A DNA stretch of 64,000 nt, taken from DHVE2 group archaeon. Its GTDB lineage: Archaea > Thermoplasmatota > Thermoplasmata > Thermoplasmatales > Aciduliprofundaceae. A model generated the notes under the pieces. That model was not told where the DNA came from and did not search any database. It saw only the letters and a program-made list of their open reading frames with translations. A program made the translations under genes and the position numbers. Of this stretch, positions 19,479 to 23,367 are shown one piece after another; the stretch's first letter is position 1, and every line of letters starts with the position of its first letter. The stretch covers positions 1-64,000 of the forward strand of contig WAKX01000029.1 in assembly GCA_015523125.1 (NCBI GenBank), given 5' to 3'.

Positions 19479-19862
19479 ATGAAGGTGCTGGAGGGAGTGT
19501 TCGTATTCTTCGCCATAATGTTTCTATTGCTCTCTGCAATTTTCTTCATAGCGGCCTTCTCGCCCTTTTCCCTCGACATACTGGTGGAGGCGGTGGTTCT
19601 GCTTCTTATCGCCATGGTTTTTTTCTTCCTCTACTATCGCTCGGAGAAAATGGAGGCAAACAGGCCCGTGGAGGTGTATCAGGATGTAAATATAAGCACT
19701 TCCAAGGACCTTGCGGGGGAGGCGGAGCTTCACGACCTGAAATGTAAGCATTGCGGGGCCACTTTAACTGCGGAAGATATTAAGATAACTGATGCTGGGG
19801 TGATTGTGAAATGTCCATACTGCGGAGCGGTTTATCGGTTGGAAGAAGAGCCCAAGTGGTGA
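19479..19862 (+). CDS. Small membrane protein with C-terminal zinc ribbon
   Basis: 127 residues. Two membrane segments fill residues 1-52 (VFVFFAIMFLLLSAIFFIAAFSPF and ILVEAVVLLLIAMVFFFLYY). A short linker leads to a zinc ribbon at about 85-120: CKHCGATL and CPYCGAVYRL. Both termini would lie in the cytoplasm. The stop overlaps the GTG start of the DUF2207-like gene by 4 bases (GTGA), and that gene overlaps the radical-SAM gene by 4 bases. The three are one translationally coupled operon, so this protein may be a membrane or metal-handling partner of the Cys-rich system. No family name is recognised. Confidence 0.82.
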   Translation: MKVLEGVFVFFAIMFLLLSAIFFIAAFSPFSLDILVEAVVLLLIAMVFFFLYYRSEKMEANRPVEVYQDVNISTSKDLAGEAELHDLKCKHCGATLTAEDIKITDAGVIVKCPYCGAVYRLEEEPKW

Positions 19863-21379
19863 TTGTTCTTATTCTCTTTGGATTCACGTTCCTTTCGAGT
19901 TTCACTCATGGGGCCGAGTATTCATTTTCTCTCGACAAGGAATACGTGGACGTTGCGTTGAACAAGAACGGGACCGCGTGGATTTTTTATCATTTCGAAT
20001 TTACCAATTACGGAGACGGCTTCAACGTGGTGGATATAGGAATGCCCAACGAGGACTACGATTTATTATCTGCGAAAGCAAGCGTGAAGATAGGTAATTC
20101 CTCATACACACCTGTTTACGATATACGACCATCTGAGTACGTGCATCCCGGTGTGGAAGTGCATATCAATGCTTATTCCGCATCGCCAATTTTCCTTAAT
20201 TTCTCCATACTTTGCGACCGGATGATTTACGAGAGCCCCGAGAACACCAGCATGGCCAGTGTGGTTTTCAGACCCACTTGGTTTGACACGGATTATCAGA
20301 TAGGTGCGACTCATGATTTGCGAATACGAATTATCTTGCCAGAAGGTATGCACTCACTGGAAAACACATCTTGGTACAACAAGAAATGGACAAATACCGA
20401 AAATGTAAATGGAAGGCTCGCGGTTGTGTGGCATTACACCAACGTGAATCCAAATGCCATAGCCAACGGAAATTACGATATCGGGATAGGATTTCCCAAG
20501 AAGTACGTTAATAAATACTACGTGAAGAGCGCATCGAATGATTTTTACTCTTTTTTCTCGGATTTAGCGGATCTCATGTGTCTTTTAAGCCCCGTGATAA
20601 TCTTTGCGCTGTTCTTTTTCCTGATGATATACGCTTCAAACAGGGCCAAGAAGGATTATTTCCGCCCAGTTCTAACCACTCCAGGTGCAGGCCCGCGCAC
20701 CGGTTTAACGGCTCCCGAGGCTGCTGTCGTTTTGGAAGTTCCTCTGGATCGGGTCATCGCCATGGTTGTTTACGGAATGCTCAAAAAGGGCATACTCGAG
20801 GAGAAAGAGGACGGAAGGTTCGAAGCGATTAATCCTTACATAGCGGACAGGGATTACGAGAAAGATTTTCTCGCCGCTTTGAAAGAAGATGGGCACTTCG
20901 ATGAGAAACTCATTAAAAAGGCTTTAGTGAATCTTATCAAATCGGTGGAAAAGAAAGTTCGCGGGTTCAGCGTAGGTGCCACCAGAAAATATTACAAGGA
21001 TATCGTGGAGAAAGCGTGGGAAGAGGTGAAGAGCGCCACGAACCCAGAGGATATTAAAAAGGCCATAGACAAATACGGTCAATGGCTTCCGGCTTCTGAG
21101 AATTACGATGATTACGTGAACACATATTTCTTCCCAATTTATATGCCCGCGTCATCTTCCAACACTTCTTTATCCCCTCCTCCAGATGTTGCCGATGCAG
21201 TTAGGGGTTATGTGGGTTCTATAAGCATTGCATCTCAAAATGTGGTTTCCGATGTGCAGCAGTTAACGAAGGATGTGACGTACATGGTTCATCCCCCAAC
21301 ATACTCCACGGGCTCCGGAGGAACAGGATGTGCATGTGCTTGCGCGTGCGCCTGCGCCTGTGCGGGAGGTGGAAGATGA
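19859..21379 (+). CDS. DUF2207-like membrane protein ending in (Cys-Ala)x6
   Basis: 506 residues from the GTG at 19859, which gives a clean signal peptide (VVIVLILFGFTFLSSFTHG); the frame opens earlier, inside the upstream gene. Residues about 22-225 are an outside beta-rich domain like DUF2207, one membrane segment follows at about 240-262 (LLSPVIIFALFFFLMIYAS), then a cytoplasmic domain with a winged-helix-like part (LTAPEAAVVLEVPLDRVIAMVVYGMLKKGILEE). The last 16 residues are six Cys-Ala pairs (491-502) then GGGR. With one membrane span after the signal peptide, this tail lies in the cytoplasm. The next gene, overlapping by 4 bases, encodes a radical-SAM/SPASM enzyme, so the tail is a plausible modification or metal-cluster site. 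Confidence 0.85.
   Translation: MIVLILFGFTFLSSFTHGAEYSFSLDKEYVDVALNKNGTAWIFYHFEFTNYGDGFNVVDIGMPNEDYDLLSAKASVKIGNSSYTPVYDIRPSEYVHPGVEVHINAYSASPIFLNFSILCDRMIYESPENTSMASVVFRPTWFDTDYQIGATHDLRIRIILPEGMHSLENTSWYNKKWTNTENVNGRLAVVWHYTNVNPNAIANGNYDIGIGFPKKYVNKYYVKSASNDFYSFFSDLADLMCLLSPVIIFALFFFLMIYASNRAKKDYFRPVLTTPGAGPRTGLTAPEAAVVLEVPLDRVIAMVVYGMLKKGILEEKEDGRFEAINPYIADRDYEKDFLAALKEDGHFDEKLIKKALVNLIKSVEKKVRGFSVGATRKYYKDIVEKAWEEVKSATNPEDIKKAIDKYGQWLPASENYDDYVNTYFFPIYMPASSSNTSLSPPPDVADAVRGYVGSISIASQNVVSDVQQLTKDVTYMVHPPTYSTGSGGTGCACACACACACAGGGR
21329..21364 (+). repeat. Twelve-codon (Cys-Ala)x6 repeat
   Basis: Six Cys-Ala dipeptide codons in a row at the 3' end of the membrane-protein gene. The cysteines use both TGT and TGC and the alanines use all four GCN codons. 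The repeat is therefore kept at protein level and is not recent DNA slippage. The DNA alternates purine and pyrimidine for most of its length. Confidence 0.9.
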
Positions 21380-22695
21380 TGTTCAAGAAGGTTGAAGATG
21401 TGAAGGAAGGTATATATCATTTCAGGGGCAAGGGTGAGTACGAGGGAATGCGTTTTCATCTTAGGGTGGATAGCAAGGATAGGGGAGTTCTAATTATAAA
21501 TGCTTCCCGAATGTTGCTGTTGAACGAGACTGGAATAGAGTACGCCATGCTCATCTTAGAGGGATTGAGCGACAAAGAAATCGTTAAGAGAATAAGAAAG
21601 AGATACCGGGTGAAAAAAGAAACGGCTATGAGGGATTTGAAGGAGTTCAAAGAGGAATTGAAATCCGCTATAAGCTGTGAGGAGATAGTTTCCGGAGTGC
21701 ATGTGAATTTAGAAGAAATATACAAAGGGCAGAAAGCCCCGTACAGGATGGATTTAGCCCTTACTTATCATTGCAATAACAATTGCATTCATTGCTACAA
21801 CAATCGGAGAGATTCGGAAGAGCTAAGCACGGAGCAGTGGAAAAAAGTTCTTGATATTCTCTGGGAGATTGGGATACCACATATTGTTTTCACGGGCGGA
21901 GAACCAACTATGCGAGACGATTTGCCAGAGCTGATTGCTCATGCAGAAAAAAATGGGCAGATCACGGGATTGAATACCAACGGGAGAAAACTGAAAGATA
22001 AAGAATACCTCGAAAAATTAATTGCCTCCGGATTAGATCACGTGCAGATAACGCTCGAATCCCTCAATCCGAAGACGCACGAGTTAATCACGAGAATCCC
22101 CGGCTCCTTCGAAGAGACGTTGCAGGGGATAAAAAATGCAATTTCTTCTGGAATATATCTGGTGACTAATACAACAATAATGGCCGAGAACAAGGATGAA
22201 ATCATTCCCACAATCGAGTTCCTCAGGGATTTGGGTGTGAAGCACATTGCGGTGAACAGCATAATCCGCTCCGGCCGAGGCATTAACGCGCATGCGGTGG
22301 GCTACGAGGAATTGAGGGATATCTTGGAGAAGGGTCGTGAGTTGGGAGTGCTTGGAGGATTCGAATTCCGCTGGTACACGCCCACTCCCTATTGCAAGTT
22401 GAACCCCATGGAGATGGGCTTGGGGATGAAATCCTGCACTGCGTGCCGTCTAAACATGGCAATCGAACCTAATGGGGATGTGCTCCCGTGCCAGAGTTAT
22501 TACTCGCCCCTGGGAAACATACTCCGGGATAAATTCGAGAATATATGGAACGCACCGCTATGCAAAAGCATAAGGAACAGAGATTACGTGCCCGATGAAT
22601 GCAAAACCTGTCCTCTATTGGGTGTTTGCGGCGGGGGCTGCCCGCTGTCGTGGAAGGCGGGAGATTACGTGTGCACCGATTCCCTATCTACCTGA
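21376..22695 (+). CDS. Radical SAM/SPASM peptide-modifying enzyme with PqqD-like N-terminal domain
   Basis: About 440 residues from ATG at 21376 (ATGATG, GGAGGTG upstream, overlapping the previous stop). Residues 1-95 resemble PqqD/RRE peptide-recognition domains (ILIINASRMLLLNETGIEYAMLILEGLSDKEIVKRI is the PqqD pattern; first residues approximate). The radical SAM core has CNNNCIHC at about 134-141 and FTGGEPTMRDD. The SPASM region (about 350-435) has CTACR, PNGDVLPCQ, LGNI, and CKTCPLLGVCGGGCP, which bind auxiliary Fe-S clusters. Such enzymes install crosslinks, thioethers or other changes in peptides. The likely substrate is the (Cys-Ala)x6 tail encoded immediately upstream; heme-d1-type or tungsten-cofactor maturation are alternatives. 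Confidence 0.92.
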   Translation: MMFKKVEDVKEGIYHFRGKGEYEGMRFHLRVDSKDRGVLIINASRMLLLNETGIEYAMLILEGLSDKEIVKRIRKRYRVKKETAMRDLKEFKEELKSAISCEEIVSGVHVNLEEIYKGQKAPYRMDLALTYHCNNNCIHCYNNRRDSEELSTEQWKKVLDILWEIGIPHIVFTGGEPTMRDDLPELIAHAEKNGQITGLNTNGRKLKDKEYLEKLIASGLDHVQITLESLNPKTHELITRIPGSFEETLQGIKNAISSGIYLVTNTTIMAENKDEIIPTIEFLRDLGVKHIAVNSIIRSGRGINAHAVGYEELRDILEKGRELGVLGGFEFRWYTPTPYCKLNPMEMGLGMKSCTACRLNMAIEPNGDVLPCQSYYSPLGNILRDKFENIWNAPLCKSIRNRDYVPDECKTCPLLGVCGGGCPLSWKAGDYVCTDSLST

Positions 22696-23367
22696 TTTTT
22701 TTGCGATTACCCAGAAGGTTGGAAGGTAGAAGATTTCCACATCTTTTTTCTCAATTGCGTATCCTTCATTTTTCAGGAAATTTACCTCGAATTCGACCAT
22801 CTTTTCCATTTCTCTGTGCGTGGTATATAGGGGAATTGTTCCCACCATGAAATCATCGGTGAATTCTTTCACAAGCGATGGAAGTTTTATGCCCATGTCA
22901 GGGTCGCCGCCCCTCTCCTTAATCATCTTCCTCGTGTTTTCCACTATTTCTCCAATCCATGATGGTGAATAAACCGCGCCCTTCCAGTATGGTTCGGCGA
23001 AGAATATCACGTATTTTTTGGCCACACGGAACATCTCTTTTATTATTCCCTTCGGGTTTTTATTCCACATCAAAAGGTAATTTCCGTAGGCGATGTCGAA
23101 ATGATCATCCCTGAAAGGTATATTTTCCCCTTTGGCGAGAATAGCTTTGAATCCTCTTCTCCTTGCGCATTCCACGGAATCGGGATCGGAATCTATTCCC
23201 GTGACATCTAAAAGGGAGTTCAGGTTGGACATTATGTATCCGCAGCCGCATCCGATTTCAACGACAGTCCTTGCGTCATTTGCGTTCTCCCTAATCATGT
23301 ATTTTTGCCATTCTTCGAGCCATTGGGCCTGCATCCTCTGCAAGTACTCAGGAATCGTGCCGCTCAT
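22684..23367 (-). CDS. Class I SAM-dependent methyltransferase
   Basis: 227 residues, a Rossmann-fold methyltransferase: motif I VVEIGCGCGYIMSNL (about residue 36), acidic motif II VTGIDSDPDSVECARR, and IPFRDDHFDIAYGNYLLMW as motif IV region. The substrate is not evident. It is transcribed away from the HTH/zinc-ribbon gene across a 46-base shared promoter, and its 3' end overlaps the radical-SAM/SPASM gene on the other strand by 12 bases. It is not in the same operon as the (Cys-Ala)x6 locus but could still belong to the pathway. Confidence 0.88.
   Translation of the reverse strand: MSGTIPEYLQRMQAQWLEEWQKYMIRENANDARTVVEIGCGCGYIMSNLNSLLDVTGIDSDPDSVECARRRGFKAILAKGENIPFRDDHFDIAYGNYLLMWNKNPKGIIKEMFRVAKKYVIFFAEPYWKGAVYSPSWIGEIVENTRKMIKERGGDPDMGIKLPSLVKEFTDDFMVGTIPLYTTHREMEKMVEFEVNFLKNEGYAIEKKDVEIFYLPTFWVIAKKSGR

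Follow-up and report, generated by a model that had tools for sequence, protein, structure and literature searches.

A C-terminal Cys-Ala tail of a membrane protein encoded with a radical SAM/SPASM enzyme: a candidate peptide-modification system in Archaea and Bacteria

We report on a four-gene cassette in a 64,000-nucleotide stretch of DNA, here called the window, from the genome of DHVE2 group archaeon (Thermoplasmatota, Aciduliprofundaceae; assembly GCA_015523125.1, contig WAKX01000029.1, positions 1 to 64,000). The cassette encodes a predicted type I membrane protein with a fixed C-terminal (Cys-Ala)n-GGGR sequence (referred to as the tail protein and the tail), together with a radical S-adenosylmethionine (SAM)/SPASM enzyme, a zinc-ribbon partner and a methyltransferase (Table 1). 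The enzyme carries an N-terminal recognition element (RRE) of the kind that guides maturases of ribosomally synthesised and post-translationally modified peptides (RiPPs). As judged from sequence comparisons, the tail and the enzyme very probably form an uncharacterised system that chemically modifies the cysteine tail of the membrane protein.

Table 1. Features of the cassette in the window
Feature	Position	Strand	Basis or description
Small transmembrane/zinc-ribbon protein, 127 aa	19479-19862	+	C-terminal CxxC...CxxC zinc ribbon
Tail protein, 506 aa	19859-21379	+	Signal peptide, beta ectodomain, one main membrane span, cytoplasmic winged-helix-like/helical region (predicted), Cys-Ala tail
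Tail, (Cys-Ala)x6-Gly-Gly-Gly-Arg, stop codon next	21329-21376	+	Putative modification site
RRE-radical SAM-SPASM enzyme, 439 aa	21376-22695	+	Pfam, AlphaFold2 model, profile and structure matches
Class I methyltransferase, fourth cassette gene	22684-23367	-	Pfam Methyltransf_11

An earlier reading of the same DNA (the original prediction) had described three genes overlapping by four bases each, and these overlaps are real, with small corrections of the start sites. The likely start of the tail protein is the GTG at 19859, which gives the four-base overlap with the preceding stop codon (an ATG at 19811 is also open), and that of the enzyme is the ATG at 21376, again with a four-base overlap, an earlier in-frame ATG being located at 21328. 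The methyltransferase gene, which overlaps the end of the enzyme gene by 12 bases, had been overlooked as the fourth member of the cassette. With intergenic gaps of -4, -4 and -12 bases there is no space for a further precursor peptide, and an unseen small precursor within the cassette was therefore ruled out.

The last 16 residues of the tail protein are CACACACACACAGGGR, the (Cys-Ala)x6-GGGR ending that was originally predicted. Given the composition of the open reading frames (ORFs) of the window (0.84% Cys and 6.6% Ala), the chance expectation for (Cys-Ala)6 is approximately 5e-16, and the next most Cys-rich C-terminus among these ORFs has two Cys in its last 16 residues. Among the 12 codons of the repeat, each of the two Cys codons and each of the four Ala codons is used, and in a sister genome (G009; enzyme 98% identical) the tail differs in two Ala codons, both silent, with no replacements. 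Selection therefore keeps the amino acids and not a DNA repeat, and on these grounds chance and DNA slippage were ruled out as the origin of the repeat. The window genome has a single tail and a single tail-protein gene. Among the Lachnospiraceae, some contigs carry two tail-protein genes each (L083; L105 with L112), and a contig from a viral collection (L188:5856-6152, minus strand) encodes a tail-protein C-terminus ending CACACAGGGR, representing viral carriage or host contamination.

Co-occurrence of the enzyme and the tail was analysed in three samples comprising 738 genomes. Specifically, in 390 genomes of the phylum to which the window belongs, a DNA pattern for (Cys-Ala)4 matched 20 genomes (its reversed control matched none of the 390), and a separate protein search with the enzyme identified the identical 20 genomes at 285 bits or more, the next matches having at most 157 bits and approximately 33% identity. 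Five tail-less genomes of this phylum carry a second radical SAM group (L213-L217) that scores 140-157 bits to the query and matches only from residue 120 onwards. Among 201 genomes of Chloroflexota, the phylum of Ornatilinea, the enzyme was found at 480 bits or more in 12, with the tail in the same locus in 12/12; the tail pattern was present in 13 genomes, the extra one being G588. Finally, two of 147 genomes of Oscillospirales, the order of Gemmiger, have the enzyme and the same two have the tail. Taken over the three samples, 34 genomes have both, one has only the tail and none has only the main-clade enzyme. Moreover, 15 tail genomes were selected mostly for the lack of an enzyme beside the tail at their locus; in 14 of them an enzyme relative is encoded at another place in the genome or shortly beyond the locus. 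Enzyme homologues occurring mostly without a Cys-repeat neighbour had been named in advance as the outcome speaking against the pairing; instead, the tail accompanies the main-clade enzyme in 20/20, 12/12 and 2/2 of the genomes that have it. This co-occurrence rules out a general tail that stands beside many enzyme types and strongly supports, at the level of sequence, an enzyme-substrate pairing, such that the Cys-Ala tail is very probably the substrate of the enzyme.

The original prediction of a radical SAM/SPASM enzyme with a PqqD/RRE-like front domain holds, since all three Pfam domains score above cut-off (Radical_SAM 4.6e-34, SPASM 2.1e-11, PqqD 6.1e-6). The AlphaFold2 model (pLDDT 91.5, pTM 0.91) comprises an N-terminal RRE, a radical SAM barrel and a SPASM domain; in the model the RRE spans residues 12-100, with strands followed by three helices, and profile positions 30-106 match the RRE of TfuB1 (E 4e-5). 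The Cys of the CxxxCxxC motif (C133, C137 and C140) are invariant in 47/47 aligned enzymes, and the SPASM pattern is complete (C354-x12-G-x4-C372 and C409-x2-C412-x5-C418-x3-C422). The radical SAM Cys and the SPASM Cys (Cx12Gx4C, Cx2Cx5Cx3C) are kept in 39-40 of 40 enzymes encoded with tails of type A (see below), with the two SPASM patterns found in 40/40; the C-terminal part of type B enzymes aligned poorly. The best solved structures are SkfB (E 1.1e-33), PqqE and SuiB by profile search, and SkfB, SuiB and CteB by structure comparison. Together, the sequence and the model support that the enzyme is a member of the RRE-guided peptide-maturase architecture. In many Chloroflexota cassettes there is a second enzyme copy that has lost the CxxxCxxC and SPASM Cys, with the FTGGE motif retained in most. 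Such pseudo-enzyme copies next to the active enzyme were noted at L102:2121-3296 (minus strand), L070:4111-5316 (plus strand) and some 17 more Chloroflexota loci, the fold motif FTGGE[PA]TLR being largely retained; this dead paralogue may be a binding partner.

The enzyme belongs to no named equivalog. Against the NCBIfam radical SAM equivalogs (NirJ2, PqqE, MftC, SkfB, AlbA, ACGX and others) its best score is 149 bits versus a cut-off of 500, and type A, B and D enzymes are likewise nowhere near any equivalog cut-off. With the SkfB/AlbA-type sactisynthases (sporulation killing factor and subtilosin) it shares the RRE-radical SAM-SPASM order, and their substrates too have Cys in the core. SkfB is the best solved match by profile and structure, yet with 22% identity in the structural alignment, and, in contrast to sactisynthase substrates, the candidate substrate lacks a leader and has its Cys at the C-terminus of a membrane protein of 506 residues. 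A small precursor peptide with a leader, as in sactipeptides, was not found, nor does any other ORF fit the cassette. The CteB/PapB ranthipeptide maturases (SCIFF and related) have the same domain order and perform thioether chemistry on repeated Cys; CteB is among the top structural matches, whereas the substrates of these maturases are small peptides and here a strict Cys-Ala alternation ends a membrane protein. The PapB model scored far below its cut-off for a type B enzyme. The ACGX-repeat system (TIGR04340) likewise links a radical SAM/SPASM enzyme to a Cys-repeat target, but the repeat, as judged from the model name, differs from Cys-Ala, and the window enzyme scores far below cut-off (77.9 bits versus 400). 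QhpD introduces thioether crosslinks, from Cys to Asp/Glu, inside a small exported subunit of quinohemoprotein amine dehydrogenase. It resembles the present case in that a radical SAM/SPASM enzyme modifies a working protein that keeps the modification. Of the features that define RRE-fused radical SAM/SPASM maturases, the CxxxCxxC motif, the SPASM Cys and the N-terminal RRE are all present, and tail co-occurrence provides a linked peptide substrate on which the enzyme would act.

Among the closest solved RRE-SPASM maturases, SkfB and CteB are thioether formers and SuiB is peptide-modifying. Thioether formation is favoured, given that thioether formers are among the nearest relatives and that the fixed part of the tail has kept every Cys. 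By analogy with sactipeptides and ranthipeptides, the chances are about even that the product consists of thioether crosslinks from Cys sulphur to Ala carbon, by which the tail would become a cage or a hairpin around the Gly. Alternatively, the enzyme might modify the tail by another radical SAM reaction, i.e. epimerisation of alternate residues giving an alternating L/D tail, oxidation of Cys to formylglycine or thioaldehyde, or C-C coupling. The strict two-residue period would fit an enzyme acting on every second residue, and the epimerase EpeE/YydG and the Cys-oxidising anSME are among the structural and sequence neighbours, but both score below SkfB, SuiB and CteB, and conservation of every fixed-part Cys, and not of the spacing alone, points to sulphur chemistry; we regard this alternative as rather unlikely. 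Sulfatase maturation, suggested by anSME among the matches, was set aside as a function because anSME ranks under the peptide maturases.

The AlphaFold2 model of the tail protein (mean pLDDT 85.5) shows a signal helix, a beta ectodomain (approximately residues 23-213), membrane helices near 225-265, a winged-helix-like and helical region beyond the membrane and a disordered tail (483-506), and hydropathy analysis places the membrane peak at 239-257. Five of six N-glycosylation sequons lie within the ectodomain and a basic stretch, NRAKKDYFR, follows the membrane span, which supports an ectodomain on the outside and a tail in the cytoplasm. The cytoplasmic placement in the original prediction thus agrees with the model, the hydropathy peak and the sequon positions, and we infer a type I membrane protein. 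Foldseek searches with the ectodomain (window 19925-20500) gave ribophorin I, an oligosaccharyltransferase subunit (E ~1e-10), and the N-terminal beta domain of M1-aminopeptidases as best matches, with low overall template modelling scores since the domain alone matches. The type A tail protein is covered by no Pfam or NCBIfam family. Its predicted topology is similar to that of DUF2207 (PF09972) membrane proteins, and it had been labelled DUF2207-like; this label found little support, as Pfam gave no DUF2207 match in the window protein and 38 relatives (39 type A members), and one type B protein from Bacillota (Firmicutes), whose ectodomain is homologous to that of the window type, matched below cut-off (E 0.011; 16.4 bits versus gathering 24.4). 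With the gathering score not reached, membership of the window family in DUF2207 was ruled out.

The type A and type B ectodomains are homologous (hhalign probability 99.9, E 3.5e-33), while the cytoplasmic region varies between the types and the body outside the tail is poorly conserved. Enzyme and tail therefore stayed paired while the intervening cytoplasmic region was remodelled. This also bears on the idea that the tail is a docking signal only, which would recruit the enzyme to the zinc-ribbon partner or the membrane, with the modified residue elsewhere. While RREs do bind peptides that are not themselves modified, the poor conservation and type-dependence leave no other shared cytoplasmic candidate site, and we consider such a role highly improbable.

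In type A (74 loci in the comparison set) the tail is exactly C-terminal and ends in GGGR; among 63 non-redundant proteins the endings are CACACACAGCACACAGGGR (28), CACACACACACAGGGR (16) and five rarer forms. The type B tail (48 loci; Bacillota and one Eggerthellaceae) continues as GGGRAGC[ST]xK..., and type D, found in four archaeal genomes, reads SCACVSCACV[SA]SCACACACAGGGAAGC and has GGGAAGC, i.e. no Arg. Many tail versions have a central Gly (CACACACA-G-CACACA). In the 63 type A relatives the tail is near-invariant (96% identity) compared to bodies of approximately 32% identity; the former value is inflated by selection of loci with CACACAGGG, a bias absent from the enzyme-first searches, which recovered the tail every time for the main-clade enzyme. 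The substrates of RiPP maturases are usually cleaved at a later stage, and the internal motif of Bacillota (GGGRAGC...) could be a cleavage site. This would suit removal of the modified tail to release a diffusible peptide natural product, the membrane protein serving only as delivery scaffold. Against this, the tail is part of a 500-residue membrane protein on the predicted cytoplasmic side, type D lacks the Arg, and no recurring dedicated protease family was seen in type A neighbour clusters, as judged by eye from sequence. Release thus appears improbable, and the tail is likely to be retained on the protein.

A zinc ribbon is usually found near the tail, either on a separate small membrane protein (type A) or inside the tail protein (many type B, and type D), the latter arrangement occurring in Bacillota and one archaeal family. 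Homologues of the small membrane protein in the window, for which the zinc-ribbon Pfam matches are weak and below cut-off, are located directly upstream of the tail gene in approximately 50 loci. The zinc ribbon beside the tail in most types, and the capacity of six to seven closely spaced Cys to bind soft metals, might indicate a tail that serves as a metal or Fe-S ligand with little or no modification, the enzyme then acting on another part of that protein or assisting in assembly. However, a fixed alternation of Cys and Ala does not resemble the CxxC pattern of metal sites, the closest relatives of the enzyme are peptide-modifying, and a metal site alone leaves the co-occurrence with an RRE-SPASM enzyme unexplained, so that we give this explanation little weight.

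A member of the methyltransferase family occurs in 36 of the 44 type A loci that extend for 3.5 kb or more downstream and in 0/14 complete type B/D loci, where the tail is not C-terminal; the methylation step is therefore not general. Its relatives beside the cassette are encoded on the opposite strand in many archaea; in Chloroflexota they share the strand of the cassette. In two genomes of the same genus (G006 and G008), queH directly adjoins a PF0610-like gene with none of the four cassette genes in between, hence the four genes were gained or lost as one block. The enzyme is found in only one (G009) of 17 relatives in the taxonomic family of the window, and the cassette is therefore sporadic within this family. 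At one locus in Oscillospiraceae (L108:732-1211, plus strand), a gene with a LURP-one-related (LOR, scramblase-like) domain lies a short way upstream of the genes for the enzyme and the tail protein.

We propose, with a rough probability of 0.55, that the four genes together give rise to a membrane protein that is modified post-translationally. The tail protein would be inserted with its tail in the cytoplasm, where the enzyme would dock through its RRE. It is likely that the RRE would bind a portion of the cytoplasmic region and that the 5'-deoxyadenosyl radical would meanwhile act on the Cys-Ala units. Such radicals would then create bonds between Cys sulphur and Ala carbon over the length of the tail, in type A the methyltransferase would add a second mark, and the modified tail would remain on the protein. 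The second mark, which might be placed on the free C-terminal Arg or a leftover thiol, is proposed tentatively. Several points weigh against the proposal. G588 has the tail pattern without an enzyme match, and two Chloroflexota genomes (G551, 224 bits; G511, 193 bits) have weaker enzyme relatives and no tail. The same enzyme class also performs C-C crosslinks, epimerisation and Cys oxidation. Moreover, the tail protein has no classical leader peptide for the RRE, and the type B and D tails carry the AGC... extension and come without the methyltransferase.

The original prediction concerned an archaeal peptide-modification candidate; the pairing of enzyme and tail stands, and a spread well beyond Archaea had been overlooked. 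A scan with one genome per species gave at least 119 tail loci in at least 10 phyla of Bacteria and Archaea. Among the matches listed are Thermoplasmatota, several Asgard groups, Chloroflexi, Bacillota, Eggerthellaceae, Aminicenantes/Acidobacteriota, Zixibacteria, Coatesbacteria, Armatimonadetes, Pirellulales, Fermentibacteraceae and others. Common gut and rumen Bacillota are among the carriers, and two carriers, Gemmiger formicilis and Ornatilinea apprima, are cultured species. A literature search gave only general papers on RiPPs, radical SAM enzymes or DUF2207 and no description of the system, which is weak evidence of absence since few subscription papers and preprints were covered. With no described family or paper found, the system would represent RRE-guided radical SAM peptide maturation applied to the tail of a membrane protein.

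Small secreted peptides are the best-known context of radical SAM/SPASM maturases; here one is linked to the predicted cytoplasmic tail that a conserved membrane protein carries. As a substrate the (Cys-Ala)x6 core is simple, so that co-expression of the enzyme and the tail could be read by mass, and the genome-neighbour rule (tail motif plus RRE enzyme) enables the finding of further members. In its most complete form, which we regard as possible though somewhat short of probable, the C-terminal (Cys-Ala)n tail would be turned into a polycyclic thioether that is kept on a type I membrane protein and acts as a redox, metal or signalling element, with the dead paralogue assisting in Chloroflexota and the methyltransferase finishing type A; this would constitute a widespread, undescribed class of modification. 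Finally, the breadth of the distribution suggests a role in basic physiology rather than as a niche antibiotic.

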